A stretch of 64,000 nucleotides of DNA from an uncultured Clostridia bacterium (GTDB taxonomy: Bacteria > Bacillota > Clostridia > Lachnospirales > CAG-274), in NCBI GenBank assembly GCA_947585865.1, contig CANPXH010000003.1:1-64000 (forward strand), written 5' to 3'. The notes beneath the pieces are model-generated. The model did not search any database. It saw only the letters and a list, made by a program, of their open reading frames with translations, and was not told where the DNA came from. Both the position numbers and the translations under genes were made by a program. Positions 29,042 to 46,594 of this stretch are shown piece after piece (position 1 is the first letter of the stretch; every line of letters starts with the position of its first letter).

Positions 29042-29951
29042 CTTACTTTAAAAAGTAAGCAAATTTATTTGTACTTTTTTGCGAAAAAAGTACCAAAAAC
29101 ATTCAGTGTTTTTTGATTTGGAGATTTCATATTTTTTATATAAGCTTCATTTATCTTACTTTAAAAAGTAAGTAAATCTTATGTACTTTTTTGCGAAAAA
29201 AGTACCAAAAACATTCAGTGTTTTTTGATTTGGAGATTTCATATTTTTTATATAAGCTTCATTTATCTTACTTTAAAAAGTAAGTAAATTTATTTGTACT
29301 TTTTTTGAAAAAAGTACCAAAAACGTGGGGAGTTCCGATTCTCCCCACACCCCTTAAACGGCTTTTGGGGCTCGAAAGTAATTTTATTTCATAACTTCTG
29401 ACCCCAAAAGAAGCAAGGCTTCTGCCTGACCACCTTGCGGTCGGCAGAAGGAGAAATTTCTCAAAAAAATTACTGATGAAATGGATTACATATGGTCATC
29501 CCACTTACAGTAAAAAAATTCTATATTTTTTGAAATCTCTTTTTTAACAGCCACAATAAACTAAAGAGAGATTAATAATCAATCACATTACTATATGATA
29601 CAATTTGTCCAAGTCTTAAGGTTTTCCGATTTGAAAAGCTAACATTTATGTGAAGCCTCACCTCCCACAGCCGCAACGTGGCTAAGTGGGAGCCCGATTC
29701 TTTTGGGGTCAAAAGTTATGCGGTAAGATGATTTCGTACCCCAAAAGCCGTTCGGAGGGGGTGGGAACCATCGGAAGGTTCCCACGTTTTTGGTACTTTT
29801 TTCGCAAAAAAGTACATAAAGTTTGCTTACTTTTTAAAGTAAGATAAATGAAGTTTATATAAAAAATACAGAAACAACAAAGAAAAAACACCGAATGTTT
29901 TGGTACTTTTTCAAAAAAGTACATAAAATTTGCTTACTTTTATAAAGTAAG
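29042..29951. repeat. Modular hairpin repeat cluster, copy B
   Basis: A 910-bp cluster. Three tandem end units with 112-113 bp period start at 29042, 29155 and 29267 (each CTTACTTTAAAAAGTAAG plus a GTAC palindrome). The last unit leads into arm Y (about 29325-29450), a divergent centre, arm X in inverse orientation (about 29650-29785) and the right end (29826-29843). A further solo end unit lies at 29900-29951. Arms X and Y here lack inserts W and Z, giving empty sites for comparison. No gene is seen. The cluster ends 12 bp from the rsmA stop. Confidence 0.88.
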
Positions 29952-29962
29952 CTAAACAAAAC

Positions 29963-30811
29963 TTACAACTCATTGCATATCCTTGCATAATCCCAAAGAG
30001 TAAGGCTTTCTCCCCGTATCCTTTCATCATAACCCAAAGACACAAGGAGCCTGCCTATTTCTTCCTTGGTCATATCGAGTATGCCGCTGTTGAATATACA
30101 GTTGACAAGAGTTTTTCTTCTCTGTGAAAAGGCAGCTTTTATAAACGCAAACATAAACGCCTCATCCTTAACGCATACGGGAGGCTTATCCAATATTGTC
30201 AGCTTTATAACGGCGGAATCCACATTTGGCCTTGGCATAAAGCAATTTTGAGGCACATTGGCCACAAGATAGGGCTCGCAGTAATATTGGGTCACAAGAG
30301 AAAGGGAGCCGTAGTCCTTTGCAGACGGCTTGGCATTCATTCTGTAGGCGACCTCTTTTTGTATCATTACTGTAAGGCTTTCCATGGGAATATGCTTTTC
30401 AAGTATGGTCATTATAATAGGCGTCGTAATATTGTACGGAAGGTTTGCCACCATTTTGACCTTCATGCCCTCATACTTTTCTATAAGGGCATTTAGGTCT
30501 ACCTTCAATATATCCTCGTTTATGATCTCTATATTGTCATAATCTTCCAAAAGCTCCTCCAGTATAGGCACAAGGGTCTTATCTATCTCTACGGACACTA
30601 TCTTGCCTGCCCTTTTGGCCATAGCCTGAGTAAGCGTACCTATACCCGGACCCACCTCTATTATAAGATCATTTTCGTTTATATCGGCTGCATTAACGAT
30701 CTTGTCCAAAACTCTTTCGTCTACAAGAAAATTCTGGCCAAAATTTTTTTTGAAATTAAATTCGTATTTTTTTATTATCTGCTTTGTCTTGTATGCTAAA
30801 CTTGCTTCCAT
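29963..30811 (-). CDS. rsmA: 16S rRNA (adenine1518/1519-N6)-dimethyltransferase
   Basis: KsgA/RsmA dimethylates two adjacent adenosines near the 3' end of 16S rRNA. The 282-residue protein has KKNFGQNFLVD (about 21-31), the SAM motif IIEVGPGIGTLTQ (about 50-62), DILKVDL (about 100) and the catalytic NLPYNITTPII (about 122-132). It starts 2 bp after the alaS stop, with only weak Shine-Dalgarno, so coupling to alaS is likely and it may share the T-box control. A repeat cluster abuts its 3' end. Confidence 0.95.
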   Translation of the reverse strand: MEASLAYKTKQIIKKYEFNFKKNFGQNFLVDERVLDKIVNAADINENDLIIEVGPGIGTLTQAMAKRAGKIVSVEIDKTLVPILEELLEDYDNIEIINEDILKVDLNALIEKYEGMKVKMVANLPYNITTPIIMTILEKHIPMESLTVMIQKEVAYRMNAKPSAKDYGSLSLVTQYYCEPYLVANVPQNCFMPRPNVDSAVIKLTILDKPPVCVKDEAFMFAFIKAAFSQRRKTLVNCIFNSGILDMTKEEIGRLLVSLGYDERIRGESLTLWDYARICNEL

Positions 30812-30813
30812 AC

Positions 30814-33453
30814 TTATTTTATCATACCCTCAATAGTCTTCTTGGCAGTTTCCAAAGCGTCGGGTATCTTGGATGTGTCCTTGCCGCCTGCCTGTGCCAT
30901 ATTTGCACGGCCGCCGCCGCCACCGCCGCATACCGTTGCGGCATCCTTTACTATCTTGCCCGCATTGGCTCCCGCCTTAACGGCATCGTCACTGCACATT
31001 ACCACAAAGCTGCACTTGCCGCCTTCTCCGCTTGCAAGAACGATGATGCCGTTCATCTTTTCCTTTATCTGATCGCCCATGGTTCTTAAGGCATTCATAT
31101 CAAGGCCCTTTACCTCAGCGGCAACAATGTCTATGCCCTTTATACTTACCTTTGAATTGATAATATCATCCACAAGTGAGCCGCTCATTTTAGCCTTAAG
31201 GCTTTCTGCTTCTTTTGAAAGTCTCTTGTTTTCTTCCAAAATATGCTCTATTTTCTTAGGCAGCTCGCCTGCGGTTGTTTTTAATACATCTGCAACTGTC
31301 TTTAAAATATAGCCTACCTCGTCAAGATAATTGAGAGCGCCCGCACCCGTAATGGCTTCTATCCTTCTTACGCCTGCTGCCACGCCGCTTTCGGACAAAA
31401 GCTTGAACACACCGCAGTAGGCAGAATTAGTAAGATGTGTGCCGCCGCAGAATTCTATAGAGTAGCCGCCTATGTTTACGACTCTTACGACCTCGCCGTA
31501 CTTCTCGCCGAAAAGCGCAACGGCTCCTGTCTTTTTAGCCTCTTCAAGGCTCATTTCCTTTACTTCTACGGGAAGAGCCTCAAGTATCTTTTCATTTACC
31601 TTTTTCTCAATGGTGTCAAGAGTTTCCTTGTCTATAGCTTCAAAATGAGTAAAGTCAAACCTCAGTCTCTTATCGCTTACATAAGATCCCGCCTGCTCAA
31701 CATGAGAGCCAAGCACCTCTCTGAGCACCGCCTGTAATATATGGGTAGCCGTGTGATTCCTTGCCGTTGCAAGTCTCTTTTCGCTGTCCACAGCAAGTGT
31801 TACCGTATCTCCCGTATGGATCGTGCCCGTAGTCACCTTGCCTGTGTGTATGAACTTGTTGCCGCCGAACTTTGTGCAATCCTCTATTTCTATGCCCAGA
31901 TCACCGGCGCCTACGATAACGCCCTTGTCGCCTGTCTGACCGCCCATTTCTGCATAGAACGGAGTTTTGTCCACTATTACCGCAACATTATCTCCCGCCT
32001 TGGCCTCGTTTACTATTTCGTCATTCACCACAAGAGCAAGTACGGTACCCTTTCCCATGAGCTCGTCATATCCGTTAAATTCCGTGGACATAGCGGGATC
32101 AAGGCGGTGGAACACCGTTTCCTCGGCTCCCATATAGGTATCCGTAGCTCTGGCATTTCTGGCTCTTGTCCTCTGCTTTTCCATTTCCGCCTTAAAGGCT
32201 TCCATATCAAATGTAAAGCCGTCTTCGGCAAGTATCTCTTCCATAAGATCTACGGGGAAGCCATAAGTATCATACATTCTGAACGAATCGGCACCGCCCA
32301 GTACATTCTTGCCCTGAGCCTTCAATTCCTTGAGCTTATCCGCAAGCATAGCCATACCTGTGTCAAGAGTATTGTAAAATCTCTCTTCCTCGGTGGAAAG
32401 TACCTTAAGTATCATATCCTGTTTTTCCACAAGCTCGGGATATGCCTTGCCTGAATTTTCTATAACTATCCTGCTGAGCTCCGCAAGGAATTTTCTGTCG
32501 ATGCCCAAAAGCTTGCCATGCCTTGCCGCCCTTCTCAGAAGACGTCTTAAAACATAGCCTCTGCCTTCGTTTGAAGGAAGCACGCCGTCAGCCGTCATAA
32601 ATGTGACTGAACGCATATGGTCTGTTATGACTCTTATTGAAACATCCTTCTTTTCGTCTTCGCCATACTTTGCCCCGCATATATCGCATACAGCATCTCT
32701 TATGGCCTTTACGGTATCTACGTCAAATATGGAATTGACGCCCTGCATAACTGTTGCGATCCTTTCAAGACCCATTCCCGTATCGATATTGGGATGATCC
32801 AGATCGGAATATGTGCCGTCTTCTTCCTTGTTGAACTGAGTAAACACAAGGTTCCATATTTCCATATATCTGTCGCAGTCGCAGCCTACGGTACAATCGG
32901 GCTTGCCGCAGCCGTATTCCTCGCCCTTGTCATAGTATATCTCTGAGCAAGGACCGCAGGGGCCTACGCCATGTTCCCAAAAGTTATCCTCCTTGCCCAT
33001 TCTGAATATCCTCTCCGGGGCAAGGCCTATTTCCTTGTTCCATATATCATAGGCCTCATCGTCATCCTGATATACGGATACATAAAGCCTGTCCTCAGGC
33101 AGCTCCACTACCTTTGTAAAAAATTCCCATGCCCATGCAATAGCCTCATGCTTAAAGTAATCGCCAAATGAGAAATTGCCCAGCATCTCAAAGAATGTGC
33201 CGTGCCTTGCAGTCTTTCCCACGTTTTCTATATCCCCTGTTCTTATACACTTTTGGCAGGTAGTCACTCTCTTGCGGGGAGGTATCTGCTGACCTGTAAA
33301 GAACGGCTTTAACGGAGCCATACCCGAATTGATGAGCAAAAGGCTCTTGTCATTATGAGGCACAAGAGAAGCGCTTGCCATTCTCAAATGACCCTTTGAC
33401 TCAAAAAACTCCAAAAATTTTTCTCTTAATTCGTTTACACCCATGAATTTCAT
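30814..33453 (-). CDS. alaS: Alanyl-tRNA synthetase
   Basis: Class II synthetase charging tRNA-Ala. The 879-residue protein is full length: N-terminal catalytic core (about 1-240: LRMASASLVPHNDKSLLLINSGMAPLKPFF, HGTFFEMLGNFSFGDYFK), a tRNA-recognition helical part, and the editing domain with the zinc-binding HTATH (about 563-567) and EFCGGTHL (about 668). The C-terminal DHHA1 domain ends with CGGGGGGRANMAQAGG. A T-box leader precedes it, which indicates control by uncharged tRNA-Ala, and rsmA follows with a 2-bp gap. Confidence 0.97.
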   Translation of the reverse strand: MKFMGVNELREKFLEFFESKGHLRMASASLVPHNDKSLLLINSGMAPLKPFFTGQQIPPRKRVTTCQKCIRTGDIENVGKTARHGTFFEMLGNFSFGDYFKHEAIAWAWEFFTKVVELPEDRLYVSVYQDDDEAYDIWNKEIGLAPERIFRMGKEDNFWEHGVGPCGPCSEIYYDKGEEYGCGKPDCTVGCDCDRYMEIWNLVFTQFNKEEDGTYSDLDHPNIDTGMGLERIATVMQGVNSIFDVDTVKAIRDAVCDICGAKYGEDEKKDVSIRVITDHMRSVTFMTADGVLPSNEGRGYVLRRLLRRAARHGKLLGIDRKFLAELSRIVIENSGKAYPELVEKQDMILKVLSTEEERFYNTLDTGMAMLADKLKELKAQGKNVLGGADSFRMYDTYGFPVDLMEEILAEDGFTFDMEAFKAEMEKQRTRARNARATDTYMGAEETVFHRLDPAMSTEFNGYDELMGKGTVLALVVNDEIVNEAKAGDNVAVIVDKTPFYAEMGGQTGDKGVIVGAGDLGIEIEDCTKFGGNKFIHTGKVTTGTIHTGDTVTLAVDSEKRLATARNHTATHILQAVLREVLGSHVEQAGSYVSDKRLRFDFTHFEAIDKETLDTIEKKVNEKILEALPVEVKEMSLEEAKKTGAVALFGEKYGEVVRVVNIGGYSIEFCGGTHLTNSAYCGVFKLLSESGVAAGVRRIEAITGAGALNYLDEVGYILKTVADVLKTTAGELPKKIEHILEENKRLSKEAESLKAKMSGSLVDDIINSKVSIKGIDIVAAEVKGLDMNALRTMGDQIKEKMNGIIVLASGEGGKCSFVVMCSDDAVKAGANAGKIVKDAATVCGGGGGGRANMAQAGGKDTSKIPDALETAKKTIEGMIK

Positions 33454-33473
33454 TTTGCTTTTCCTCCATAAAT

Positions 33474-33724
33474 AAATATCCCCCGAAGCCCATAGGCCTC
33501 AGGGGCGTAATAAATTACACGGTACCACCCTGCTTATACGTCAAGCGTATATCTCGGATATCCTTTAACGCAGACACAGCGGCGGAGTATTGATCCGCAC
33601 GGGAGATTTCTCTCATAAGGGAGCTTCACTTTATACATTGCAGATGCTCTCACCTTCCGCATCCTCTCTGAAGCCTTTGCATAAAGCTACTTATCCTGCC
33701 GTTTTCACATCATTTTCACATCAG
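33474..33724 (-). ncRNA. T-box leader of alaS
   Basis: The conserved T-box AGGGTGGTACCGTG lies at 33518-33531 (minus strand), followed by a terminator hairpin (GCCCCTGAGGCC..GGGCTTCGGGGG then ATATTT) at about 33478-33506. Upstream, the roughly 200-nt Stem I region has an AGTA motif and a GAAGCTC segment whose GCU would be the alanine specifier codon. Uncharged tRNA-Ala would stabilise the antiterminator. Confidence 0.92.
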
Positions 33725-33729
33725 CTATT

Positions 33730-33758
33730 ATTATATATAAACCAATGGGATTTGTCAA
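33730..33758 (-). promoter_or_regulatory. SigmaA promoter of alaS
   Basis: Minus strand TTGACA, 17-bp spacer, TATAAT; transcription would start at about 33724, directly at the T-box leader. Confidence 0.85.
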
Positions 33759-33766
33759 GCACAGCT

Positions 33767-36448
33767 TTATTCACTTGCCGTATTATTTTGCTCCTTTCCC
33801 ATATCGCTGCTTTTTGTTATTTTGTCTTTGATAAGCTTTGATATCTTTTCTTTGTAATTAAGGTAAATAAGTATGCACCAGCATATCAAGGCTATAATGA
33901 TACCGAGCCTGTAGCCTCTGACGGTATATACCATTTTGATATTGTGCTGCCCGGCAGGAGTCCTGAAAGCAACAAGAGCATCGGCTATTTTTTCTCTCTT
34001 GAGCTTTTTGCCGTCACAGTATACGCTCCAGCCGCCGTCATCGGCAATGGATGTGTAGTATAGCTGATCGTCCTTTGCCGCATTCACAGTGCCTTCTATT
34101 GTCGTATCTGTAAATTTTTCCACCTGCAGGCCGCCCTGGCGGAGTGTCTCTGCCATTTGTCCGAAGTCATCCATATTGAATCTGAAAAGCTCTATGTTGT
34201 AAAGAGCGTAATCATAGCCTTCGGGAGCAACTCTGACATTGACCGTATCTCCCTTTTTAAGCTTGCCCAGATATTTTACAGGCTCGTTTATGTTTATTGT
34301 ATACTCCTTGCCTGCTGCATTTATGACAACATCTCCTGCTTTGAAGTAATGCTGAAGATAATATGCTCCGTCACGATCGCATACAAAACTGTAATCAAAC
34401 ACTACGTTTCGCCCGCCGTCTATTCTTGTATAGTGTCTTTCGTGCCAATCGCCCCCTGTTTCCAGCGTGGCATTTTCAACATCGGCGATATATGGCTGTA
34501 TCTGAGTGTATACCTCCTTGTCCGTACCCAAAGCTCTCTTTGCATAATCGTTTTGGAGCTGCAAGGGGCCTATATCCTCCTTTGCCCAGTCTGTAAGTTC
34601 ATCATTGACCCCAAAGACAAAGGGAAGACAGTTCCTGTTTTCGTCCACATAATAGCCGTTCTTTACATCTATAAGATCGTAGCAGCTGAGATCTATGCTC
34701 TTATCTCTGTCCAGTATATATTTCACGCCGAATATACTGTTGGTAAAATTGTTTTGAGCGTTATATATGCTGCTTACATTAAGGGCATATACTCTGTTGC
34801 CCAGCGCTTCCATAAGGTTGTAAACGCCGCCGTTCATAGTGGAGGAATAATAGGATATACCTTTGTAATCATAGAGCAGACCGGGGTCGAAAGTCCAGCC
34901 CGAATTCATTTCCGTTCTGTAGAGACCATCGTCTTTATCAAGTATATTTTCCCTTATCTCCTCCATATGTCCGTCAAAGAAATAGTTGTTTGCAAGCTCG
35001 CCTGCCCTTAAGCCTATCTTTGCACAGTAGCCTGTGTTTACTCCCATCTCCGCCATTATTACTATGGCAGTGACTATACACAATGTGCTGCCGACTTTGT
35101 TAAATACCTCCTTGCCAAGCTTTGCTTCGGAGGCGGCAGTCGAGATCACGCTTTTAAAGTCATTGAGTATGCAAAAGAAAATAATCATAAGTATATAGCC
35201 TATGCCAAAGCATATGGTAACTATTTTGGATACGGCTATCTCATCGCCCTGGGCAGACGTGAACATACCCAATACATATACTAGCATCATACATATGACA
35301 GCGCCTATGAGCTGAATGATATTAACGCTGCCAAGGCTTTGTATGCCTTCATATGCCATTATGAGGACTAAAAATGATATAAGGAATGTCCATCTTCCCG
35401 GAAGCTGATTGGGGAAATGGAATCCATGCCAAACATAGTCCAGTACATTGAAATCAAATGAGAGCAAAAGGAATATGAAAAATACGCCATAGCTTATTTT
35501 TTTCTTAAGGCTTATATCTCTGCTGCTGAGGAATATCCCCATAAACGGTATCACAAAAAATCCTGAATATATGTTGGGAACAAAGAATTCATATGAAGGC
35601 TTTGTAAACATAAACATACTCTTGGCAATGTCAAAAAGAGAATGATAGAGCTTGAGCTCCTCTATCGTGGAATGATCCGGGTTCCTCGTCTTTATGGTCA
35701 TATATACGGAAAATACGCTGAAGGCCGTAATGCCTCCCGCCAAAAGAGAATATATTATAAATCTCTTTACAACGCCGTTTTTTATACTTTCCTTAAGCGG
35801 TGTATCCGAGCTTATGAGAAGCACCGCAAAATAAAGCAGCAGGAAAATACATATGCTGAATGATATATAAAAGCTCGTGTATATTGTAAAAGCAAGAACC
35901 AGCGTATACATAACCGGCTTATTTTCATTTATGAGCCTTTCCAGACCTATCATTATAAGAGGGAAAAGAATTATACAGTCTGTCCACATAGGCTGATTTA
36001 TAAATGCAAGAGCATATGAACTGAGGGCATAAGCTATTGAAAACGCTACGGTCATCACATCTGTTTTTTTATACTTGTATTTGAGAAATCCCAAAAACGA
36101 AACGGAATAAAAGCCGTATTTGATCAGCAGCACCACATCCAAGGCCTCTATCAGCTTGCTGCCCGGCACAAAAGCCAATATTTTATAAAACAAGCTGTTG
36201 CAATAATACAGAGTCTGTGCATACAAATTAAATCCAAGGCCGCCATCCCATGAATATTTATCCGATATGAAGGAACGCATATCGTACCAGTTTGCCTTTA
36301 TCATAGGGTAATACTGCCCCCACATATCCATTGACAGTATAGACTTGTTTCCAAACGGATACATGCCGACAAGAGCATATGCAATGCTCATTATTATTAT
36401 AGGCATTATAAATGCCAAGCCGAATAACGCTATATCCTTTCTCTTCAT
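33767..36448 (-). CDS. YfhO-family polytopic membrane protein
   Basis: An 893-residue membrane protein with about 12-13 N-terminal hydrophobic segments and a large extracellular region (about 480-850), then a final membrane segment near residue 860. The opening MSMDMWGQYYPM-like pattern (SILSMDMWGQYYPMIKANWYD, about 36-56) is the YfhO signature. YfhO proteins are GT-C type enzymes linked to glycosylation of lipoteichoic acid in Bacillus, so a cell-envelope sugar-transfer role is reasonable. The C-terminal VYTVRGYRLGIIIALICWCILIYLNYK is the last anchor. It has its own promoter and faces repeat cluster C upstream. Confidence 0.88.
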   Translation of the reverse strand: MKRKDIALFGLAFIMPIIIMSIAYALVGMYPFGNKSILSMDMWGQYYPMIKANWYDMRSFISDKYSWDGGLGFNLYAQTLYYCNSLFYKILAFVPGSKLIEALDVVLLIKYGFYSVSFLGFLKYKYKKTDVMTVAFSIAYALSSYALAFINQPMWTDCIILFPLIMIGLERLINENKPVMYTLVLAFTIYTSFYISFSICIFLLLYFAVLLISSDTPLKESIKNGVVKRFIIYSLLAGGITAFSVFSVYMTIKTRNPDHSTIEELKLYHSLFDIAKSMFMFTKPSYEFFVPNIYSGFFVIPFMGIFLSSRDISLKKKISYGVFFIFLLLSFDFNVLDYVWHGFHFPNQLPGRWTFLISFLVLIMAYEGIQSLGSVNIIQLIGAVICMMLVYVLGMFTSAQGDEIAVSKIVTICFGIGYILMIIFFCILNDFKSVISTAASEAKLGKEVFNKVGSTLCIVTAIVIMAEMGVNTGYCAKIGLRAGELANNYFFDGHMEEIRENILDKDDGLYRTEMNSGWTFDPGLLYDYKGISYYSSTMNGGVYNLMEALGNRVYALNVSSIYNAQNNFTNSIFGVKYILDRDKSIDLSCYDLIDVKNGYYVDENRNCLPFVFGVNDELTDWAKEDIGPLQLQNDYAKRALGTDKEVYTQIQPYIADVENATLETGGDWHERHYTRIDGGRNVVFDYSFVCDRDGAYYLQHYFKAGDVVINAAGKEYTININEPVKYLGKLKKGDTVNVRVAPEGYDYALYNIELFRFNMDDFGQMAETLRQGGLQVEKFTDTTIEGTVNAAKDDQLYYTSIADDGGWSVYCDGKKLKREKIADALVAFRTPAGQHNIKMVYTVRGYRLGIIIALICWCILIYLNYKEKISKLIKDKITKSSDMGKEQNNTASE

Positions 36449-36485
36449 TAGAGTACACCCTCTTTATATTTATTAATATTCAATA

Positions 36486-36514
36486 ATTATAACACGCCCC
36501 CGTTTTTTTGTAAA
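36486..36514 (-). promoter_or_regulatory. SigmaA promoter of the yfhO-like gene
   Basis: Minus strand TTTACA, 17-bp spacer, TATAAT about 40 bp before the start codon. Confidence 0.7.
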
Positions 36515-36521
36515 GTAATTG

Positions 36522-36600
36522 TTGGCAGGCTGTATGTTGGCAGGCTGTATGCCTCGGAATCAAAATAAGCGGATGCGCCGCACTTGTTGAGGTGCGGCGC
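36522..36600. repeat. 15-bp tandem duplication and GC-rich hairpin
   Basis: TTGGCAGGCTGTATG occurs twice in tandem (36522-36551). It is followed by a perfect GCGCCGCAC..GTGCGGCGC hairpin (36575-36600). Neither is part of the repeat family at 36691. Confidence 0.7.
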
Positions 36601-37047
36601 TCCCGCTCGTTGCAAAATATGTTTTGCGTTAAGGGCTGTTTGGTTGGTTTGAAAGGAAGTTCGAACTTTTATTTGTAATTTGAGGTTTATCTTACTTTAG
36701 AAAGTAAGCAAATTTTATGTACTTTTTTACGAAAAAAGTACCAAAAACATTTAGTGATTTTTTATTTGTTGTTTCTATGTTTTTATATAAACTTTATTTT
36801 TTCTTACTTTAAAAAGTAAGCAAATTTTATGTACTTTTTTGCGAAAAAAGTACCAAAAACGTGGGAACCTTCCGATGGTTCCCACACCCTCCGAACGGCT
36901 TTTGGGGCTCAAAAGTAATTTTATTCCATAGCCTTCGACCCCAAAAGAATCGGGCTCCCACTTAGCCACGTTGCGGCTGTGGGAGGTGAGACTTCACATA
37001 AATATTTGTTGCCTGTATCAAACCTCCCCTTCGTAAGGGGAGGTGTC

Positions 37048-37109
37048 ATTGCACCGAAAGACATATCGGGTGACCGCAGGTCGACTTTCGGCGAAGCCGA
37101 AATTGCTGA
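37048..37109. repeat. Mini-insert Z, first copy in cluster C
   Basis: A 62-bp module ATTGCACC..TTGCTGA between a CCTCCCCTT-cgt-AAGGGGAGG hairpin and an AGTCC-gta-GGACT hairpin. Its first two helices differ from copy A by paired changes (CCGA/TCGG, GACC/GGTC). Confidence 0.83.
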
Positions 37110-37369
37110 AGTCCGTAGGACTGACGGTAGGGTCGCTACCAACGAAAACGAAAATTTAAATCTTTATTTGTCTTACTTTAATTTGTAATATAAACTTTAT
37201 CTTACTTTAAAAAGTAAGCAAATTTATTTGTACTTTTTTGCGAAAAAAGTACCAAAAACGTGGGGAGTTCCGATTCTCCCCACACCCCTTAAACGGCTTT
37301 TGAGACACAAGGATATTCTATTTTTTTAGCTTTTGACCTCAAAAGAGGCAAGGCTTCTGCCTGACCACT

Positions 37370-37432
37370 ATTGCACCGAAAGATTTATCGGCCACTCGCT
37401 AGAGTGGCTTTTGCCAAAGGCAAAAGTGCTGA
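37370..37432. repeat. Mini-insert Z, second copy in cluster C
   Basis: A 63-bp module inserted inside the third hairpin of arm Y: GACCACT before and TTGCGGTC after. Copies A and B have the uninterrupted GACCACCTTGCGGTC. Its third helix is CTTTTGCC/GGCAAAAG instead of CTTTCGGC/GCCGAAAG. Confidence 0.85.
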
Positions 37433-37661
37433 TTGCGGTCGGCAGAAGGAGAAACTTCTCAAAAAAGTTACTAATAAAATGTACTACGGATGTATTCTCT
37501 TACAATATGGGAAGTTCAATATTTATATGGAAGTTTTCCCCGCAGTCGCAACGTAGTTAAATAGGTACCCTATTTTTTATGAACAATTATGAAAATAAAG
37601 CACTTTTGTTAAGGGATTGGGTTTAAAATATCTAATAAATTGATTAACAAATTGTTAGCTA

Positions 37662-38669
37662 CTATTCTGTCTTTATCATATTAAATAGACGGGAATCCAA
37701 TGTTTTATTGATTTTATTATTGGCATTGCATATTGAATTAAGTCTCAGCAGTGCAATTAAACGATCTATGGTTTCCTGGGTGAGATTATAATCCCTCATA
37801 AGTGTATTGCATATAAAGCTTTCGTCGATTGAATAATATTCGTTTTTTACAAATGCATTTTTAAGTCTATTCTCTATTTTCTCTGCAATATCAAAAGGCA
37901 AATCATGTCTTATAATTTCTGTAACTTTTTTAATAGCATTTGGAGAAATATTTATATATTTAGTGTTTAATGATAAATTTGCACGTATATAGTCAAGTTT
38001 ATCTTCATTAACTTCATTTCTTGTCATGATAAATCTCGACATGACCGGCGCTCTTTTCATATCCCCGCTGGATATTGACAGCATTCCACCGATTATAAGC
38101 TGGATTGATATTTGGTTTAAGGGTGGATGATAAAAAGCCAATGATACGATTTCTCCAAAGTCTTTACTTTTTAATGTTATGAAACCATTAGGAGTATTCT
38201 TGGATAAAATAAGCTTTCCAAAATATTCTTTGTTCAGATAATCTGTTGGTATTGTAAGGGATACTTGTATATATTGTTTATAATAAATTTTGACATATGC
38301 TTTTAATAAAGTGCCAGGTTCATTATTTTGTGTTGGAAAGAAATAAAAAAAATACTCACCAATATATTTATTGTAATCTGATGAACTATAATCATATTCG
38401 AAATTGTTGTAAGATATTTCTTTATCATCATTTCCCAACAGAAAATCCGTTGATATATTTAGTGCTTTGCTAAGTGCTATCAGGAAATTAACATTAGGTA
38501 TCCTGTTTGTTACATATATTTTTAAATTGCTTTTTGTAATAATATAGCCTACTTCATTGTTTAATATATAGCATAATTTGTCGTAATTTAAGCCTTTGCA
38601 ACGCATTATATATTCGACTCTAGAGAAAAATACATTATTCTCAAAAAATTCCTTATTCTCGGTTTTCAT
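37662..38669 (-). CDS. XRE-type regulator with unknown C-terminal domain
   Basis: A 335-residue protein whose N-terminus (about 13-80) reads as a Cro/C1-type helix-turn-helix: FFSRVEYIMRCKGLNYDKL, then SNLKIYVTNRIPNVNFLIALSKALNISTDFLLG, where the last 17 residues are highly typical. The remaining 255 residues match nothing I know; a PMSRFIMTR segment and a helical C-terminus are visible. The gene is very AT-rich compared with neighbours, Asn/Ile/Tyr-rich, and lies between repeat clusters C and D, which suggests acquired DNA. It is divergent from the SLH-like gene across a roughly 210-bp AT-rich region. Confidence 0.78.
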   Translation of the reverse strand: MKTENKEFFENNVFFSRVEYIMRCKGLNYDKLCYILNNEVGYIITKSNLKIYVTNRIPNVNFLIALSKALNISTDFLLGNDDKEISYNNFEYDYSSSDYNKYIGEYFFYFFPTQNNEPGTLLKAYVKIYYKQYIQVSLTIPTDYLNKEYFGKLILSKNTPNGFITLKSKDFGEIVSLAFYHPPLNQISIQLIIGGMLSISSGDMKRAPVMSRFIMTRNEVNEDKLDYIRANLSLNTKYINISPNAIKKVTEIIRHDLPFDIAEKIENRLKNAFVKNEYYSIDESFICNTLMRDYNLTQETIDRLIALLRLNSICNANNKINKTLDSRLFNMIKTE

Positions 38670-38705
38670 ATACTATCCTCCATGATTTAATCTTGACGAT
38701 TTAAT

Positions 38706-38758
38706 ATTATACCATGAACAGGTAATCTAATCAAGTAATTTTTCATCAAAATAGATTA
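38706..38758 (-). promoter_or_regulatory. Promoter of the XRE gene with possible operator
   Basis: Minus strand TTGATT (38729-38734), 17-bp spacer and TATAAT (38706-38711). TAATCTA (38723-38729) and TAGATTA (38752-38758) form an inverted repeat spanning the -35 region, a candidate autoregulatory operator for the XRE protein. Confidence 0.6.
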
Positions 38759-38880
38759 TTCATTAATAATATACAAAAAAATATCGTCATATATATTAAA
38801 AATTCATATAGTAGTATTTTAAAAATATGATATAATAAAAATAAACCTTTTAGAGTATGAAAAAAGGAGATGAAATATGT

Positions 38881-39783
38881 ATGAAAATTTTTTTTAAAGA
38901 ATGCGTGGCTACATTTGCTGTTTTAACTGTTTTATGCTTCAGTGCTCAAAACACGTTTCCTAGCTTGAGAAGTAAAAGCGAAAGCAGATATGCGTTTAAT
39001 ATAGCGACAAATCCGTCACTGATACATGAAATTTCGCCAAATGTTGCGAAAGATGAATATTTTACGTCTAAAATGTCAGAATATTACGACCAATCTACAG
39101 GCAATAATGCAATAAGCTACATAAGTTTTCGGAATAGAGGACATGAGATGGATTTTTCAAAGAACATGTCTATTATAAGTGTTGCTAGACTCTGCAGCTA
39201 TTACAGAATAATTTCAAATATTAGCGAAAACAATGCTATTTTTGATGAAGTAATTGATTCATATGCAAACGATACCGTTCAGAAACTTATGTACAAGGAA
39301 ATGGCTACTGTTGATAATGAGGACTTTATGAATAAAGTTGCAACACGTGAGGAAGCTTTATATATAATTTATAATATTTTATTAATGCCTATTGATGATG
39401 TATTGGCAGAACCAAGGGATAAGAATTTCGATCTGATACATATATATACTGATGCAAATGAGCTTTCTGAATGGGGCCTTGAATGTTTAAAGTTGTTGCA
39501 TATAAATGACTATGTATATGGCAAGGGTTCAAAAATAAGGCCTAAAGAACAAGCGGATATTGAGTTTTGCAATGTAATTGCAAGCAGATTTGATCCAAAT
39601 GACTACGCCGACTTTAGTATGGCTTTAAAATATCAGGCTTTAGGACTTAGAAGAAAACTTAATGATTTCGGCATGAAAAACATGGGCATTTTGACACTCA
39701 CAGGAGTGTTTACACCCATAGTTGTAGCTATAAAAAATATTATTTCAGAATATAATAAACGAAAAAAATTTTTTTACCAATAA
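38881..39783 (+). CDS. Exported protein with SLH-like repeats and C-terminal anchor
   Basis: A 300-residue protein. A signal-type hydrophobic segment is at residues about 5-25 (ECVATFAVLTVLCFSAQ) and a second one near the C-terminus (about 270-290, MGILTLTGVFTPIVVAIKNII) before a KRKK tail. Residues about 145-245 read like divergent S-layer homology repeats: ATREEALYIIYNIL, then YTDANELSEWGLECLKLLHINDYVYGKG and IRPKEQADIEFCNVIASRF. These track the SLH pattern TREEA / WA..AV..L...G / F.P...ITRAEF. Start ATG 38881 has AAGGAGA ten bases upstream. AT-rich like its divergent XRE neighbour. The function is unknown; cell-wall association is inferred. Confidence 0.7.
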   Translation: MKIFFKECVATFAVLTVLCFSAQNTFPSLRSKSESRYAFNIATNPSLIHEISPNVAKDEYFTSKMSEYYDQSTGNNAISYISFRNRGHEMDFSKNMSIISVARLCSYYRIISNISENNAIFDEVIDSYANDTVQKLMYKEMATVDNEDFMNKVATREEALYIIYNILLMPIDDVLAEPRDKNFDLIHIYTDANELSEWGLECLKLLHINDYVYGKGSKIRPKEQADIEFCNVIASRFDPNDYADFSMALKYQALGLRRKLNDFGMKNMGILTLTGVFTPIVVAIKNIISEYNKRKKFFYQ

Positions 39784-39890
39784 TATAGCATCTAGGTTTT
39801 AACGGATATTTGGCTATTTTAATATAAAGGTATTGCTACTTGTTATCAGATTTTTGACTGGCGCATGGAAGTTGGTACAAAATAATATGT

Positions 39891-39920
39891 AAAACGACTA
39901 AGATTTATCTTAGTCGTTTT
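39891..39920. terminator. Hairpin terminator after the SLH-like gene
   Basis: AAAACGACTAAGAT and ATCTTAGTCGTTTT form a 14-bp stem with a TT loop and flanking A/T tracts. Confidence 0.8.
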
Positions 39921-40353
39921 GTTATGCAGTTTAATCTGTATTCAAGGAAGTATATAATCCGTCAAGTTTAAGTTTGATCTATTTTGCATAATATTACTCT
40001 ATATTAGATTATAACTCTGATTATTATTTCCAATGCATCTTGGTTGAGTTTCAACCTTATTGAGCTGTTTAACGACAGGATTTTTGAGCGTAAAGTTTTA
40101 TCATTGCTTTCCATTAGCAGACACATATCTTAAAAAGTTCATCGCAAGAACAAAACACTATACCTATCAGTATGAAGATATCAAGATAATAGATAATGCA
40201 AACCGGCTTTTGGATAATCGATTTGCATTATCCAAAACAGACATAATCTTGCTTTTAGGAAATAAGTTATAAAAATATTTTATGTCAATGAAAAGCATGA
40301 AATTTTATGCAAAAGTATTGTTAAAGTGTCAATGATTGGTAACATTTTTTTGA
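39921..40353. other. AT-rich stretch without a supported gene
   Basis: A 70-codon frame at 40060-40272 has a charged second half (LKKFIARTKHYTYQYEDIKII) but no ribosome site and no recognised family, so it may be a gene remnant. GATAATGCAAA..TTTGCATTATC (about 40193-40231) forms an inverted repeat within it. Nothing else was seen. Confidence 0.35.
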
Positions 40354-40393
40354 AAGGCAGGTTGCTTTCGTGCCTCAAAAGCCGTTTGGAGGG

Positions 40394-40436
40394 CTGGTCG
40401 TATCACTTCGTGATACTGCTCGCCCAAGCAACCGGG
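40394..40436. repeat. Mini-insert W in copy D
   Basis: About 43 bp with GTATCAC-ttc-GTGATAC, at the same arm position as in copy A, between GGAGGG and GGTGGGAACC; copy B has these joined. Confidence 0.8.
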
Positions 40437-40460
40437 GGTGGGAACCATCGGAAGGTTCCC

Positions 40461-40522
40461 ATTGCACGGAAAGACTTATCCGGCGGCCAAAGGCCGACTT
40501 TCGGCGAAGCCGAAAGTGCTGA
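40461..40522. repeat. Mini-insert Z in copy D
   Basis: A 62-bp module next to the first hairpin of arm X, at the position homologous to that in arm Y of copy A. The loop of helix 2 is AAA instead of GCA. Confidence 0.85.
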
Positions 40523-40559
40523 ACGTTTTTGGTACTTTTTTCAAAAAAGTACATAAACT

Positions 40560-40760
40560 TTAAATAACTTTATATCCCTGTTCTTCAACAGCCTTTGTTA
40601 TAACATCGCCGCTTATCTCTGCATTAAGTGTAATAACGGCGGTACCCTTTTCGTGGCTCACCTCAGCCTTATCCACCTGAGGAAGAGCCTCCAAGCACTT
40701 CTTTACAGCTGCCTCGCAATGGGGGCACATCATACCTTCGATCCTGATAGTTTTTTCCAT
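40560..40760 (-). other. Possible internal translation start yielding a CopZ-like 66-residue chaperone
   Basis: Within copA, Met763 is preceded at 9 bases by AAAAAGGAGAT on the minus strand, a strong ribosome site in the right frame. Starting here gives a free 66-residue HMA protein with MxCxxC, the size of a CopZ copper chaperone. The fused gene may derive from copA and copZ joined by loss of the copA stop. Confidence 0.5.
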
Positions 40761-43046
40761 AGTTTTTATCTCCTTTTTATATTTTATTTTTCGGTCCTTT
40801 TTAGGACTGAATATATCGATAAGATTAAGTCTTAAAGCATTTGAGACCACGCAGAAGCTGGACAAACTCATTGCCGCAGCGGCAAACATAGGGTCAAGCC
40901 TTAAGTTGAATATGGGTATAAGAAGTCCTGCGGCGATAGGGATGCCTATCACGTTATAGAAAAATGCCCAAAACAAATTCTCATGTATATTTTTAAGCGT
41001 TGCCCTGCTCAGCCTTATGGCAGCGGGAACATCGCTGAGTTTACTGTTCATAAGGACTATATCCGCAGCATCTATGGCAATATCGGTGCCTGCGCCTATG
41101 GCGATGCCTATATCGGCGCCTGTAAGTGCAGGCGCATCGTTTATACCATCGCCGACCATGGCAGCTTTGCCTTTGCTTTTAAGTGAGGAAATAGCCTTTT
41201 CCTTGCCATTTGGCAATACTCCGGCTATCACTTGATCCACTCCCGCCTGTTTGCCCACTGCGGCAGCGGTCCTTTCATTGTCGCCTGTTATCATTACAAC
41301 GTTTATGCCCATATTTTTAAGCTCTGAAACGGCTCTTGCGCTGTCTTCCTTTATTACATCGGCAACGGCTATTATGCCTATAGCATCCTTTTCCCTTCCG
41401 AAGAACAAAGGAGTCTTGCCTTCTTCCGAAAGTCTTTCGTATGTCTTTACGGCATCTTCGGATAACTTTACCTCTGAGCTTATAAATTTGAAATTTCCGC
41501 CTATCAGCTTTTTGCCGTCAAGCATAGCTGTAAGTCCGTTGCCCGGCAGCACCTTGAAATCGGTGACTTCGTGATACGGTATATTTTCTTCGCTGCCCTT
41601 TTCCATAACGGCTCTCGCAAGGGGATGCTCGCTTTTTCTCTCCAAGGAATAAGCCAGTGTGAGCAGCTCATTTTCACTTATGCCTTTGCTGGGTATCACA
41701 TCCGTAACGACAGGCTCGCCCTTTGTGATGGTTCCTGTCTTATCCAATGCCACAACATTTACTCTGCCCGTTTCTTCAAGAGAAACGGCGGTCTTGAAAA
41801 GTATACCGTGCTTTGCGCCTACGCCGTTGCCGACCATTATTGCAACGGGTGTCGCCAATCCCAGTGCACAAGGGCAGCTTATTACCAGCACGGATATCCC
41901 TCTTGCCAAAGCAAAGCCGAAGCTTTGACCCGCTATGAGCCAAATTGCTATTGTGATCAAGGCTATGGTAATTACTGTGGGAACGAACACGCCCGATACC
42001 TTATCGGCTATTTTTGCAATAGGCGCCTTTGTGGCGGCAGCATCGCTCACCATTTTTATTATTTGCGAAAGAGTAGTATCTTCTCCCACATTAGTGGCCT
42101 CGCAGCGTATATAGCCGGATCTGTTTGATGTGGCGGCGGATACCCTGTCTCCCACAGATTTGTCAACGGGAATGCTTTCTCCTGTGAGCGCAGATTCGTC
42201 AACGGCACTTATACCCTCCGTTACGATACCGTCTACGGGTATATTTTCCCCGGGGCGTACTGCAAATATATCGCCTTTTTTGACCTGCTCCACGGGAACT
42301 GTCACTTCAATGCCGTCTTGTATTACAACGGCTGTTTTGGGAGCAAGCTTCATAAGGGATCTTATGGCATCTGTGGTTTTGCCCTTTGATCGTGCCTCCA
42401 GCATTTTGCCTACGGTTATAAGGGTAAGTATCATGGCGGCGGACTCAAAATAGAACTCATGCATATATGCCATTTCCGCCGACATATCCCCCTTCATCAC
42501 GGCATCCGTCATTGCAAAAAGAGCATACAAGCTGTATACAAAAGAAGCCGTGGAGCCAAGAGCCACAAGAGTATCCATATTAGGCGCTCTGTGCCAAAGG
42601 CTCTTGAAGCCGCTTATGAAAAACTTTTGATTTATGACCATTATGATGCCGGAAAGAAGCAATTGTATGATACCCTGAGCAATATGATTTTTCTCCAAAA
42701 TTTCAGGCAAAGGCCAACCCCACATCATATGACCCATTGATATATACATAAGAGCCGCCAAAAAGCCTAAGGATAATATGAGCCTTCTTTTGAGCACAGG
42801 CGTTTCCCTGTCTGCCAAGGCGTCTTCGCTCTCGGCTTTATTTTCGGCGCCCTTCAATGATGCGCCGTAGCCTGCAGCCGTTACTGCAAAAATAATGTCT
42901 TTTGGGCTTGCCGTTCCTTCAACCGCCATAGAGTTCGTGAGAAGACTGACCGAGCAGGAGCTCACTCCCTCCACTGCCATGACAGCCTTTTCGACTCTTG
43001 CGCTGCAAGCCGCACAACTCATTCCCGTTACATTATACTGCTCCAT
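40560..43046 (-). CDS. copA: Copper-exporting P1B-type ATPase with N- and C-terminal metal-binding domains
   Basis: An 828-residue copper efflux pump. An N-terminal HMA domain has GMSCAAC (Cys 11 and 14). The transmembrane metal site is VISCPCALG (about residue 386), the phosphorylated Asp is in DKTGT (about 435) and SEHPLA is the HP motif. [10 protein letters not shown] lies near 636. A second HMA domain with GMMCPHCEA is fused at the C-terminus (residues 763-828) through a basic linker. Such C-terminal fusions occur in related clostridia as I remember. An internal ribosome site precedes Met763 (separate entry). The gene follows csoR and a Cys-rich membrane peptide gene whose stop overlaps its start, so copper-dependent derepression is expected. 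Confidence 0.96.
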
Positions 43047-43195
43047 TATTTTTCCTCCTCATTCGCCTTATGCTTTTGGCCGCATCTGCAGCAGTCGCCG
43101 CAGCAGCCGCCTTGCCCTCTGAAATGCTTGAGAGATGACTTAACGGCAAAAAAGGCGATCAATCCAATTATAAGTATCACGATTATATTTCCCAT
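43046..43195 (-). CDS. Small Cys-rich membrane peptide (FeoB-associated-like)
   Basis: A 49-residue protein too short for ordinary gene calling. Residues 3-18 form one membrane segment ([16 protein letters not shown]). The tail has five cysteines in CCGDCCRC (31-38) followed by HK and EEEK. The layout matches the FeoB-associated Cys-rich membrane protein group, small metal-linked peptides next to metal transporters. It lies between csoR (12-bp gap) and copA (stop overlaps the copA ATG by one base as TAATG), so a role in copper handling is inferred. GGAGAGCC precedes the ATG. Confidence 0.82.
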
Positions 43196-43206
43196 AACGG
43201 CTCTCC

Positions 43207-43500
43207 TTATTTCATTATCCTTTGCAGAATATCTACCAATTCGTCAACAGTCTCCGTGCGCCCGCCTTTTATATCGTTAACGACACAAGACCTGATGTGC
43301 TCTGCAAGCAGTTCTTTATTAAAGGACTTAAGGGCAGCGTTTACGGCGGCCACCTGTATGAGTATATCGGCACAGTATATATTTTTTTCCACCATACCTC
43401 TTATCCCTCTTATCTGTCCTTCTATTCTGTTGAGCCTGTTTATAAGGCTTTTATATTCCTCTGCCGAGCGTTCCTTCGTTCTGTGGCAGCAATTGTCCAT
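43207..43500 (-). CDS. csoR: Copper-sensing repressor CsoR
   Basis: A 97-residue all-helical DUF156 regulator. The Cu(I) ligand pattern is complete: Cys in NIYCADIL (about 43), then EHIRSC giving His and Cys four residues apart (about 68 and 72). RLNRIEGQIRGIRGMVE is the family N-terminal helix. Cu(I) binding releases it from DNA. It heads the csoR - Cys-rich peptide - copA operon, and two GC-rich inverted repeats overlap its promoter, so autoregulation is expected. Confidence 0.94.
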   Translation of the reverse strand: MDNCCHRTKERSAEEYKSLINRLNRIEGQIRGIRGMVEKNIYCADILIQVAAVNAALKSFNKELLAEHIRSCVVNDIKGGRTETVDELVDILQRIMK

Positions 43501-43520
43501 AATATCACCTCAATATCAAA

Positions 43521-43570
43521 ATACCCCCTACAGGTATACTGATTATATACCTATGGGGGGTATTTGTCAA
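43521..43570 (-). promoter_or_regulatory. csoR promoter with two CsoR boxes
   Basis: Minus strand TTGACA (43565-43570), 17-bp spacer and TATAAT (43542-43547). ATACCCCCTACAGGTAT (43521-43537) and ATACCTATGGGGGGTAT (43547-43563) are near mirror copies of the CsoR operator. One box fills the spacer and the other covers the start site, an ideal arrangement for repression. Confidence 0.88.
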
Positions 43571-43626
43571 TACTTATTTTTATATATTTCTTAAAAGACC
43601 GTACTTAATATGAATATAGCCGTTGT

Positions 43627-44019
43627 CTAAAATTTTATCTCTGTTGAAGGCTCTGTAAATGAACATATCATTGCTGTTACATCCTTAAGATAAAACACCT
43701 CCGTGTTGCCGTCTCCCGGCTTATATTTTGCCTGAAGCGTAGGATAGCTTTCCAGCAGATGAGCCTGTGCCGCCGTATTGTCGTCATATATGGCCTTGCC
43801 TGTAAGTCTTATCCATTTGTCATTGTACATGGCGCTTATCTCTATATTCGGATTCATCTTCATCTGCTTTGAAACAGCCTTTGTTTTACCTGTTTGTATA
43901 TACAGCCTGCCGTCAAAAATATCTATGGTGCCAAAGGGCCTTACCCTAGGCTGATCCTTGTCCGTTGTGGCAAGATAATATATACCCACGCTTTTTAAAA
44001 ACTCGTAGACTTCGTTCAT
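43627..44019 (-). CDS. Pyridoxamine 5'-phosphate oxidase-family protein
   Basis: A 130-residue split-barrel flavin-binding family protein. The opening MNEVYEFLKSVGIYYLATTDKDQPRVRPFGTIDIFDGRLYIQTGK is typical of short FMN-binding members, and CS near the C-terminus is not catalytic. These proteins bind FMN or F420-like cofactors; the substrate is unknown and it should not be called PdxH. Start ATG 44019 has GGAGG ten bases upstream; the longer frame to 44055 overlaps ftsW. It lies 16 bp after ftsW but is probably an accidental neighbour of the dcw cluster. Confidence 0.85.
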   Translation of the reverse strand: MNEVYEFLKSVGIYYLATTDKDQPRVRPFGTIDIFDGRLYIQTGKTKAVSKQMKMNPNIEISAMYNDKWIRLTGKAIYDDNTAAQAHLLESYPTLQAKYKPGDGNTEVFYLKDVTAMICSFTEPSTEIKF

Positions 44020-44035
44020 TTTTATTTCCTCCGTT

Positions 44036-45223
44036 TTATCTGCTGTTTCTTCCATGATATCTGGATATATTCATAAGCACGCCCATAGAACCGAGCATCA
44101 TTACAAGAGATGTGCCGCCGTAGCTTATAAACGGCAGCGGTATTCCCGTATTGGGAATGGTATTTGTAACAACGGCTATATTTATTATCACCTGCACCGC
44201 TATCATTGTGGTGATGCCTATGGCCAAGAGCATTGAAAACGGCTCCTTTGCCTGTCTTATGGCTATGTATACTCCACGCCATATGAGCACTATGAATATA
44301 GTTATTATGATAGCCGCTCCGAACCAACCCAATTCCTCGCATATAATGGCAAATATAATGTCATTATGTGCCTCCGGCATATAGCCGAGCTTCTGTCTCG
44401 AACCGCCTATGCCCAGTCCGAACATACCTCCGCTGGCTATGGAATACAGAGACTGAAGCACCTGATAGCCCTTTTCATTGGCAACGCTTTCGGGATGCCG
44501 CCATGCCTGTACTCTGTCGCTTCGCCACGAACCGAATATCATAAATATAACGCCTGCTATACCTGCGGCCGTAGGCGCAAGGAAATATTGAAGCTTCGTG
44601 GTATATACAAAAAGCATAACCATACTTATGGCGCCCATTACTATAGCCGTACTGAGGTTCTCTACGGCTACAAGTCCGCAAGGCAAGGCAACTATGACCA
44701 AATACCTTGCAAAATCCCTCCACGAGCGGAAAATAGTCTTATCCTCTGTAAGGAGAGTAGCAAGAGTGATTATGAGCACTATCTTGGCCACCTCCGACGG
44801 CTGGAATTCAAATGCGCCTATACCGAGCCACCTTTTTGCACCGTTGTGCTCTATGCCGAGAGGCGTTATTACAAGTATGAGAAGTATGCAGGAAAGTATG
44901 TAGCCCGGGCGCACAAGTCTTTTCAAAAGCTCATGAGGAAACTTGCTTGCCAAAAACATTGCCACAAAGCCTACGGCAGAGAAAAACAATTCCTTTTTGA
45001 GATAAGAATACATATCTCCGTTTCCTCTTCCTGCTGTGTAATAGCTTGAACTGAATACCATAACTATGCCAAAGCCCACAAGGAGTATCACGCACAGAAG
45101 TATTATATAGTCTATTTCGCCTATAAATATTTTCTTTTTTTTCTTAGGCGGTCTTTCATTGTATTGATAATTGCCGCCTCTGTTTCTGTTTAGGGTGGGC
45201 AAATCGTAGCCTCTGCCTGCCAT
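44036..45223 (-). CDS. ftsW: SEDS peptidoglycan polymerase FtsW/SpoVE
   Basis: A polytopic (about 10 segments) glycosyltransferase that polymerises lipid II at the septum or spore cortex with a partner class B PBP. The 395-residue protein has a basic N-terminal tail (PPKKKKKIF) and the SEDS motifs AKRWLGIGAFEFQPSEVAKI (about 128-147), GSRQKLGYMPEAHNDIIFAIICEELG and the C-terminal NTGIPLPFISYGGTSLV. The start at 45223 is supported by CAGGTG; a GTG at 45232 is possible. Two PBPs in the same cluster mean that either the FtsW or the SpoVE role is possible. Confidence 0.92.
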   Translation of the reverse strand: MAGRGYDLPTLNRNRGGNYQYNERPPKKKKKIFIGEIDYIILLCVILLVGFGIVMVFSSSYYTAGRGNGDMYSYLKKELFFSAVGFVAMFLASKFPHELLKRLVRPGYILSCILLILVITPLGIEHNGAKRWLGIGAFEFQPSEVAKIVLIITLATLLTEDKTIFRSWRDFARYLVIVALPCGLVAVENLSTAIVMGAISMVMLFVYTTKLQYFLAPTAAGIAGVIFMIFGSWRSDRVQAWRHPESVANEKGYQVLQSLYSIASGGMFGLGIGGSRQKLGYMPEAHNDIIFAIICEELGWFGAAIIITIFIVLIWRGVYIAIRQAKEPFSMLLAIGITTMIAVQVIINIAVVTNTIPNTGIPLPFISYGGTSLVMMLGSMGVLMNISRYHGRNSR

Positions 45224-45235
45224 AATGATCACCTG

Positions 45236-46594
45236 CTACTTAAGTCTTTTTACATAGTCCTTGAATATTGCTCCTCTTTGCTCATAAGAATCAAACATAT
45301 CCCAGCTTGCGCAGGCAGGTGAAAGCAGTACACAGTCTCCCGCCTCTGCATTTTCATAGCAGAGATCTATCGCTTGGGTAAATGTATCGGCCGTTTTGTA
45401 ATTTGTGAAGCCGGCCTCATCAAGAGTACAGGTCACTATCTTCTTGACAGCGCCTATCACCGCAGCAAATTTTACCCTGCCCTCAAATGCCGCAACAAAG
45501 TCACTGTAGTCCGAACCCTTGTCATAGCCTCCTATTATAAGGCATATGGGTCTCTTCATTGCCTCCAATGCCTTTATTGAAGCGTCGGGGTTAGTGCCCT
45601 TTGAATCGTTGTAAAATTCTATGTCGTTTATTGTAGTCACATATTCTATCCTGTGCTCCACCGCCTTGAATTCCCTGAGCACCCTCCTTGTTATATCCAA
45701 GGGTACGCCAAAGGCCGTGGCGCAGCCTATGGCCGCCATAGCATTTTCCACATTATGGCCGCCCAATATATTGAGCTCGTCTATGTCCAATACCTTTTCG
45801 TCATAGCCCAATGTTCTTATATATATGCTGTTTTCATCGGAATATATTCCCTCGGCGATCTCATTATCCAAAGAAAAATATATTACCTTTGCCTTTGTCT
45901 TGCCTGCCATTGCCGCAGTAACAGTGTCGTTGCGGTTAAGTATGCAAAAGTCTTGGGGAGTCTGATTTTCAAATATTCTTTCCTTTGCCGCAATATAGTT
46001 TTCTATGCTGTGATGTCTGTTCAAATGATCCGGGGTAATGTTCAGCACCGCACTTATCTTTGGCCTGAATGTATCTATGGTCTCAAGCTGGAAGCTGGAA
46101 AGCTCCGCAACAACGGCACCGTCATTTGTCGTATTAAGCACCTCCTTGGCAAAGGGTTCGCCTATATTCCCCACCACATAGGTATTTTCCTTGTAGGCCT
46201 TTAAAATATCTCCTACAATGGTGGTGGTCGTAGTTTTGCCGTTTGTGCCTGTAATGGCTATGACAGGTGACTTACAGTATCTGTAAGCAAGCTCTATCTC
46301 TCCTATCACCTCTATGCCCAGCTTTCTTGCCTTATTTACAAAGGGAAGATCCGTAGGCACTCCGGGGCTCATTACGAGCATATCCATATCTGCTATTATA
46401 TCATCGGGATTTGTGCCAAGGTAAAGCTCTATGCCTTCTGCTTCAAGCCCGTTCAAGGTTTCTCTGTCCAGCTTATCCTCGGTCTTGGCATCTTGTATTA
46501 TTACGTCTGCTCCGAATTTTCTCAAAAGATGTGCGGCAGCTATACCGCTTTTGGCAATGCCGCTTACCAATACCTTTTTATTTTTTACATCCAT
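45236..46594 (-). CDS. murD: UDP-N-acetylmuramoyl-L-alanine:D-glutamate ligase
   Basis: Adds D-glutamate to UDP-MurNAc-L-Ala in the cytoplasm. The 452-residue ligase has an N-terminal substrate domain (VLVSGIAKSGIAAAHLLRKFG), the ATP loop AITGTNGKTTTTT (about 114-126), NITPDHLNRHHS (about 187) and the C-terminal FYNDSKGTNPDASIKALEAM (about 330) motif. It lies between mraY and ftsW, the standard dcw order. Gaps are 12-18 bp, so it is in the same transcript. Confidence 0.97.
   Translation of the reverse strand: MDVKNKKVLVSGIAKSGIAAAHLLRKFGADVIIQDAKTEDKLDRETLNGLEAEGIELYLGTNPDDIIADMDMLVMSPGVPTDLPFVNKARKLGIEVIGEIELAYRYCKSPVIAITGTNGKTTTTTIVGDILKAYKENTYVVGNIGEPFAKEVLNTTNDGAVVAELSSFQLETIDTFRPKISAVLNITPDHLNRHHSIENYIAAKERIFENQTPQDFCILNRNDTVTAAMAGKTKAKVIYFSLDNEIAEGIYSDENSIYIRTLGYDEKVLDIDELNILGGHNVENAMAAIGCATAFGVPLDITRRVLREFKAVEHRIEYVTTINDIEFYNDSKGTNPDASIKALEAMKRPICLIIGGYDKGSDYSDFVAAFEGRVKFAAVIGAVKKIVTCTLDEAGFTNYKTADTFTQAIDLCYENAEAGDCVLLSPACASWDMFDSYEQRGAIFKDYVKRLK

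Follow-up and report, generated by a model that had tools for sequence, protein, structure and literature searches.

A short non-coding sequence of about 60-66 bp, here called Z, is repeated in a 64,000-nucleotide stretch of DNA from an uncultured Clostridia bacterium (contig CANPXH010000003.1, positions 1 to 64,000; the window) and is probably a non-autonomous mini-element defined by its structure, copied and inserted by an activity working on folded single strands and partly multiplied together with larger modules. In the proposed mechanism, an activity acting in trans would copy and insert Z as a unit, would recognise the folded single-stranded nucleic acid and would insert it into unpaired points of folded targets. 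Many copies, those of the window included, would later have been multiplied passively as their carrier palindromic modules spread.

The four copies located by the first-pass annotation were confirmed, all on the + strand (Table 1). Its termini ATTGCAC..GTGCTGA were found exactly at three window sites, for a chance expectation of 0, but the copy at 37048 ends in TTGCTGA. The covariance model recovered 4/4 window copies and revealed no further full copy in the window. Since the copies at 10503 and 40461 share one site of one host repeat, the window offers three contexts rather than four. As a single strand, Z is predicted to fold into a cloverleaf in which a short stem closes off three hairpins and the ATTG...CTGA ends stay unpaired, and the window copies folded as ssDNA are more stable than their own shuffles (z -2.3 to -4.9). 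The closing stem GCA/TGC is a fourth helix, additional to H1-H3, and becomes GAA/TTC in the ATTGAAT...GTTCTGA subfamily of the wider set of sequences described below.

Table 1. Copies of Z, unfilled sites and host modules in the window (hyphens around Z mark junctions)
Feature	Position	Strand	Evidence or remarks
Z type II, 63 nt	37370-37432	+	end match, covariance model, covariation, fold z-score -4.93
Closing helix of the 37370 copy	37373-37375/37427-37429		
H1 of the 37370 copy	37376-37379/37388-37391		
H2 of the 37370 copy	37393-37397/37402-37406		
H3 of the 37370 copy	37408-37415/37419-37426		
Z type I, 62 nt	10503-10564	+	flanked by CTCCCC and ACGTTTTTGG; end match, covariance model
Z type I, 62 nt	40461-40522	+	TTCCC-Z-ACGTTTTTGG; host site is that of 10503
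Z type III, 62 nt	37048-37109	+	within CCTCCCC...GGGGAGG repeat; end degenerated to TTGCTGA
Unfilled counterpart of the 37370 site, GACCACCTTGCGG	29428-29440	+	second at 10389 (-)
Unfilled counterpart of the 10503 site, CTCCCCACGTTTTTGG	37252-37267	-	another at 29317 (-)
Host-repeat cluster without Z	29004-29973		absent in G001, G002, G003, G004
Host module carrying Z 10503	9942-10648		G003: different palindromic repeat there; G001: almost nothing
Segment with three Zs	33762-40559		G003: flanking sequences only a few bp apart

The compensatory changes that had been reported for three helices are real and extend to all four. In a first alignment, 99.5% of the pair cells held standard pairs and double-sided changes numbered 25 against 7.5 in shuffles, falling to about zero when the partners were slid. 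A wider set of 83 distinct sequences from relatives showed double-sided changes at 18 of 20 pairs, with 313 double-change cells against 80.5 in shuffles; this alignment was fitted to the model and is thereby biased toward structure, its slid versions being only 34-49% paired. The H2 stems were exchanged whole (GACC/GGTC, GCAC/GTGC, AGCC/GGCT) with pairing always kept, and such exchanges were seen among near-identical Zs at one host site (L299-L310 in G026, types I-III in the own genome, G000). These H2 exchanges look like quasi-palindrome correction or stem exchange and not like point mutation.

The genome-wide search for further copies proposed in the first-pass annotation yielded 42 covariance-model matches in G000 (2.58 Mb, 81 contigs), with 30 exact-end copies. 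Among the 61 genomes searched (own and relatives), 34 contained Z matches, with a maximum of 85 copies (G019 85, G026 79, G004 76, G014 72 and G013 65). Genomes of the own family such as G009, G011 and G012 gave zero matches by covariance model; within one genus, G012 is Z-free and G019 and G026 are Z-rich. Genus g6 is likewise without Z. In an even class-wide sample of 391 genomes, Z matches at a cut-off of 1e-5 were limited to 6: the own genome, one belonging to a different family of the order, and four members of family f35. Several of these matches also sit within long hairpins. The Z-like elements of f35 (L357, L358, L360, L361, L362, L365) are distant and lie at or near the tips of large hairpins, which have no Rfam match and the basal stems of which vary among copies with complementarity kept; at one of ten loci scanned (L361), a T-box leader adjoins the Z-like copy, an observation that was set aside. 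A 14-base pattern scan of genome contigs returned chance matches apart from L092. No Z copy was detected in the viral contigs, phages and plasmids searched, and thus no vehicle was seen. A literature search, thin on subscription papers, yielded no description of the Z family in Clostridia.

In G000, most copies occupy three fixed sites in larger palindromic repeats, with one Z subfamily per site: CTCCCC-Z-ACGTTTTTGG, GACCACT-Z-TTGCGG, and GGTGGC or GGTGTC-Z-AGTCC. More generally, copies sharing a host site usually belong to one Z subfamily. The intact sites described for the 37370 and 10503 copies were found as stated (Table 1). The filled site at 37370 differs from the intact one by a single base (CCACT-Z-TTGCGG vs CCACCTTGCGG), the T being common to the filled copies of type II. 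Clustering by flanks of 142 full-length copies from several genomes gave 59 contexts, the flanks coming from the top-scoring copies in a few genomes and one broad host class accounting for 34 of these contexts. For 45 of the 59, a Z-free sequence spanning the junction was present in the sampled DNA, an upper figure because some matches are modest in identity or derive from tandem Zs. The best unfilled match of each of these 45 contexts showed no indel near the junction in 29 cases, one extra base in the filled form in 12 and another outcome in 4. The unfilled form was 100% identical across 61 bases for the type I site and across 46 bases for the G003 site GGGGGAC-CGCCG (CCTCCCCTATCAGGGGAGGGGGAC-Z-CGCCGTTAGGCGGTGGAGAGGT). 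Direct repeats at the 59 junctions had a mean length of 2.5, compared with 2.3 for permuted flanks. As this is not clearly above chance, no target duplication was seen; the earlier statement to that effect is borne out at these junctions and at the unfilled sites.

The CCTCCCC...GGGGAGG host family carries Z at at least 6 different positions, and one host+Z composite is common to G000 and G003. Over the 59 contexts, a mild preference was noted for C before Z and for A (rarely G) after it; CTGA-AC is accordingly a frequent right junction, likewise in tandem Z arrays. Another two-hairpin repeat family, with GAAAGAAATG... and CGTGTCGA...TCGACACG, is present in the window at 14838-14907 and 26133-26202 and also at L185 in G004; several palindromic families, this one included, occur in these genomes. 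The 20 kb from 28001 to 48000 gave 245 matches in the own genome, chiefly to palindromic host repeats. Many contigs end at or beside such repeats, by which the draft assembly seems to have been broken.

The position of Z relative to the host fold was analyzed by joining and folding the left and right flanks of each context and scoring the stack across the junction. The stacked-pair probability across the junction was 0.28 against 0.49 at control offsets (59 contexts, p<1e-4), and the dip did not extend beyond the junction and the boundaries next to it. The contexts are not independent; grouped as 18 host classes, they gave 0.27 against 0.49 (p=0.004). Of the 59 junctions, 15 lie in predicted hairpin loops, 19 in interior loops or bulges, 7 in multiloops and 2 outside; a predicted stem is still interrupted at 16 (27%), compared with 51% at control positions. 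Moreover, the complementarity between left and right flanks exceeds that of permuted flank pairs (p=0.0003). In these predicted folds, fold-compatible junctions can reflect either a choice of target or the subsequent disappearance of copies that had disrupted the host fold.

The description of Z as a discrete repeated element nesting in other repeats was confirmed and extends to Zs within other Zs. An inner Z was found at the H1-H2 junction of an outer one in G000 (L009), G026 (L192:6228), G004 (L182:960 and L183:479) and G002 (L198:336 and 6280, L313, L314, L318), and in the H3 loop in G019 (L283, L287, L288, L291, L293, L295, L296). After removal of the inner Z (L192, L198, L183), the outer one is a 95-99% match to intact Zs. 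The H2 loop of Z also holds other palindromic repeats (L181, L198:534, L280), and three near-identical Zs follow each other in tandem with AC spacers in G004:C6.

The comparison of occupied and empty orthologous sites suggested in the first-pass annotation was carried out in sister species: it revealed whole modules present or absent (Table 1), but among the loci compared no site differed by Z alone. Between the genes flanking the 29004-29973 cluster, G003 has 83 bp, and G001 has about 17 bp at that place; at the L014 locus, the module is absent in G004. This variation of whole modules between sister species indicates that part of the spread of Z is hitch-hiking. The earlier claim that Z moves therefore holds in part: we infer independent movement from the 59 contexts and from the nested copies in relatives, but the window copies alone do not show it, because they occupy fixed module sites and, at the loci that could be compared, the sisters lack the entire module or have another in its place. 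Two window genes lying between repeat clusters, 37662-38669 and 38857-39783, have no Pfam match; the former encodes a helix-turn-helix-like regulator without a relative in four sister species. Both were considered as mobility genes and rejected, the one as HTH-like and the other for want of any match, neither being transposase-like.

No recognisable transposase accounts for Z, and no tested known enzyme class tracks it. Y1_Tnp and Z counts were uncorrelated over the 61 genomes (rho 0.04, p=0.75), of the 17 genomes carrying 20 Z or more, 7 had no Y1 (G019, with 85 Z, among them), and none of 29 Y1 loci contained Z in flanks of up to 1.5 kb. The own genome has one IS200-like Y1 transposase gene (G000:C63:3107-3436) with Z-free surroundings. 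IS110 transposases were detected neither in G000 nor in 16 of the 17 Z-rich genomes. A retro-element (group II intron, retron, DGR) was rejected, as a search for RVT_1 gave no match in the six genomes searched (G000, G001, G002, G003, G026, G022). An IS91 element was likewise rejected: the Y2 transposase is confined to 2 of the 61 genomes, neither of them Z-rich, and the own genome has no IS91. These gene absences rest on draft genomes, which can miss genes, and recur across many of them. An autonomous partner with Z-like ends around a gene was not found among the matches listed in 360 kb of G026, where the approximate-motif scan was noisy. Finally, the orientation of Z relative to the local coding strand was 29:29, and therefore no lagging-strand transposition bias was seen.

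These results can be read in other ways. Z could be mostly a passenger, having got into a few of the larger palindromic repeats at an early date and been multiplied only with them since, the modules spreading by transposition or recombination. The three fixed sites of the own genome with their site-specific subfamilies, the whole-module differences between sister species and the composite shared by G000 and G003 are all in agreement with this, but many separate insertions are needed for 59 contexts, for several positions in one host family and for the Zs lying within differing outer Zs in several species; we regard it as rather unlikely, though as an alternative to be taken seriously. Alternatively, no dedicated enzyme would be involved: replication stalled at hairpins would switch template and copy in another hairpin repeat. 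Breakpoints would then be set by structure and quasi-palindrome correction would also produce paired stem changes. Insertion at helix boundaries with neither duplication nor strand bias, H2 stems that change whole yet stay paired in near-identical copies and the failure of Z to track any enzyme class tested are compatible with such a process. It is nevertheless improbable, since ATTG and CTGA are exact in dozens of contexts and no host flank is carried along, which points to recognition of the ends.

The mover suggested in the first-pass annotation was a Y1 HUH transposase; on this reading, Z would be a REPIN-like or IS200/IS605-derived element moved in trans. The foldback structure, the lack of target duplication, the nesting and the tandem arrays are REPIN-like (PMC3116915) and a Y1 gene is present in the own genome, but the uncorrelated counts, the Z-rich genomes without Y1, the Z-free Y1 loci, the lack of a fixed tetranucleotide in the left flank and the unbiased orientation have turned against this proposal, which we now hold to be quite improbable. 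Z could also be a structured RNA that serves the cell and has spread and persisted on account of this role, which would explain the strong covariation; this is hardly credible, since Z occurs in both orientations at every kind of intergenic position and neither the window Z nor ten Z-bearing loci matched an Rfam family, a result that also led to the rejection of Z as a known structured RNA. Exact ends across many contexts speak for a putative enzyme that recognises folded ends, and a structure-defined mini-element inserted by an activity on folded single strands is the reading that we retain. In a bolder version, put forward as a doubtful suggestion, Z would be a small cloverleaf mobile DNA with ends and targets both defined by single-strand folding, inserting where other folded repeats are unpaired and building nested palindromic mosaics; at the same low level of confidence, it would be moved by a kind of enzyme, or by a host process, belonging to none of the Y1, Y2, IS110, DDE and reverse-transcriptase routes.

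Small palindromic repeats are packed densely between the genes of these Clostridia. By what means repeats of this kind multiply when no transposase is dedicated to them has been stated as an open question for the CGTC repeats (PMC3733652). Because Z has clear ends, unfilled sites, tens of copies and Z-free sister genomes, the mover can be sought by comparison of gene contents. Z also allows a direct test of insertion guided by folded targets, and is a warning that paired changes within a repeat need not imply a functional RNA.

Among known systems, MITEs moved by DDE transposases end in inverted repeats and duplicate their target over a fixed length. Z, in which pairing near the ends is only short, was rejected as a MITE of this type since no duplication of fixed length was present at the 59 junctions or at the unfilled sites. 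MITEs and small mobile repeats such as RU/ERIC and bcr1 are, like Z, non-coding, mobile, structured and intergenic (PMC2229807, PMC2759123, PMC2267715). IS1397 and IS621/IS110 insert into REP palindromes and thus share with Z a palindromic-repeat target, but they are far longer and encode their own transposases (PMC1525189). The CGTC-tagged palindromic repeats, reported in Proteobacteria, Bacteroidetes and others, are short and palindromic and share with Z the lack of a known dedicated transposase; each consists of one palindrome bearing a CGTC tag, whereas Z is a cloverleaf without this tag, in Clostridia (PMC3733652). A derivative of IS200/IS605 was rejected for lack of a fixed short target in the left flank, which varies over the 59 contexts with a mild preference for C. 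Z is also similar to REP and REPIN sequences, which also form tens to hundreds of short foldback intergenic copies with paired stem changes, lie in clusters or tandem arrays and are non-autonomous (PMC2817692, PMC3116915). RAYT/REPIN systems are defined by a GTAG (or GTGG) head beside the palindrome and by a RAYT flanked by the repeats (PMC2817692, PMC3116915). Unlike them, Z combines three hairpins with a closing stem in place of one or two REPs, its ends are ATTG and CTGA without a GTAG head, and it flanks none of the 29 Y1 loci examined. Z behaves like a REPIN or a MITE, yet by test it belongs to neither.
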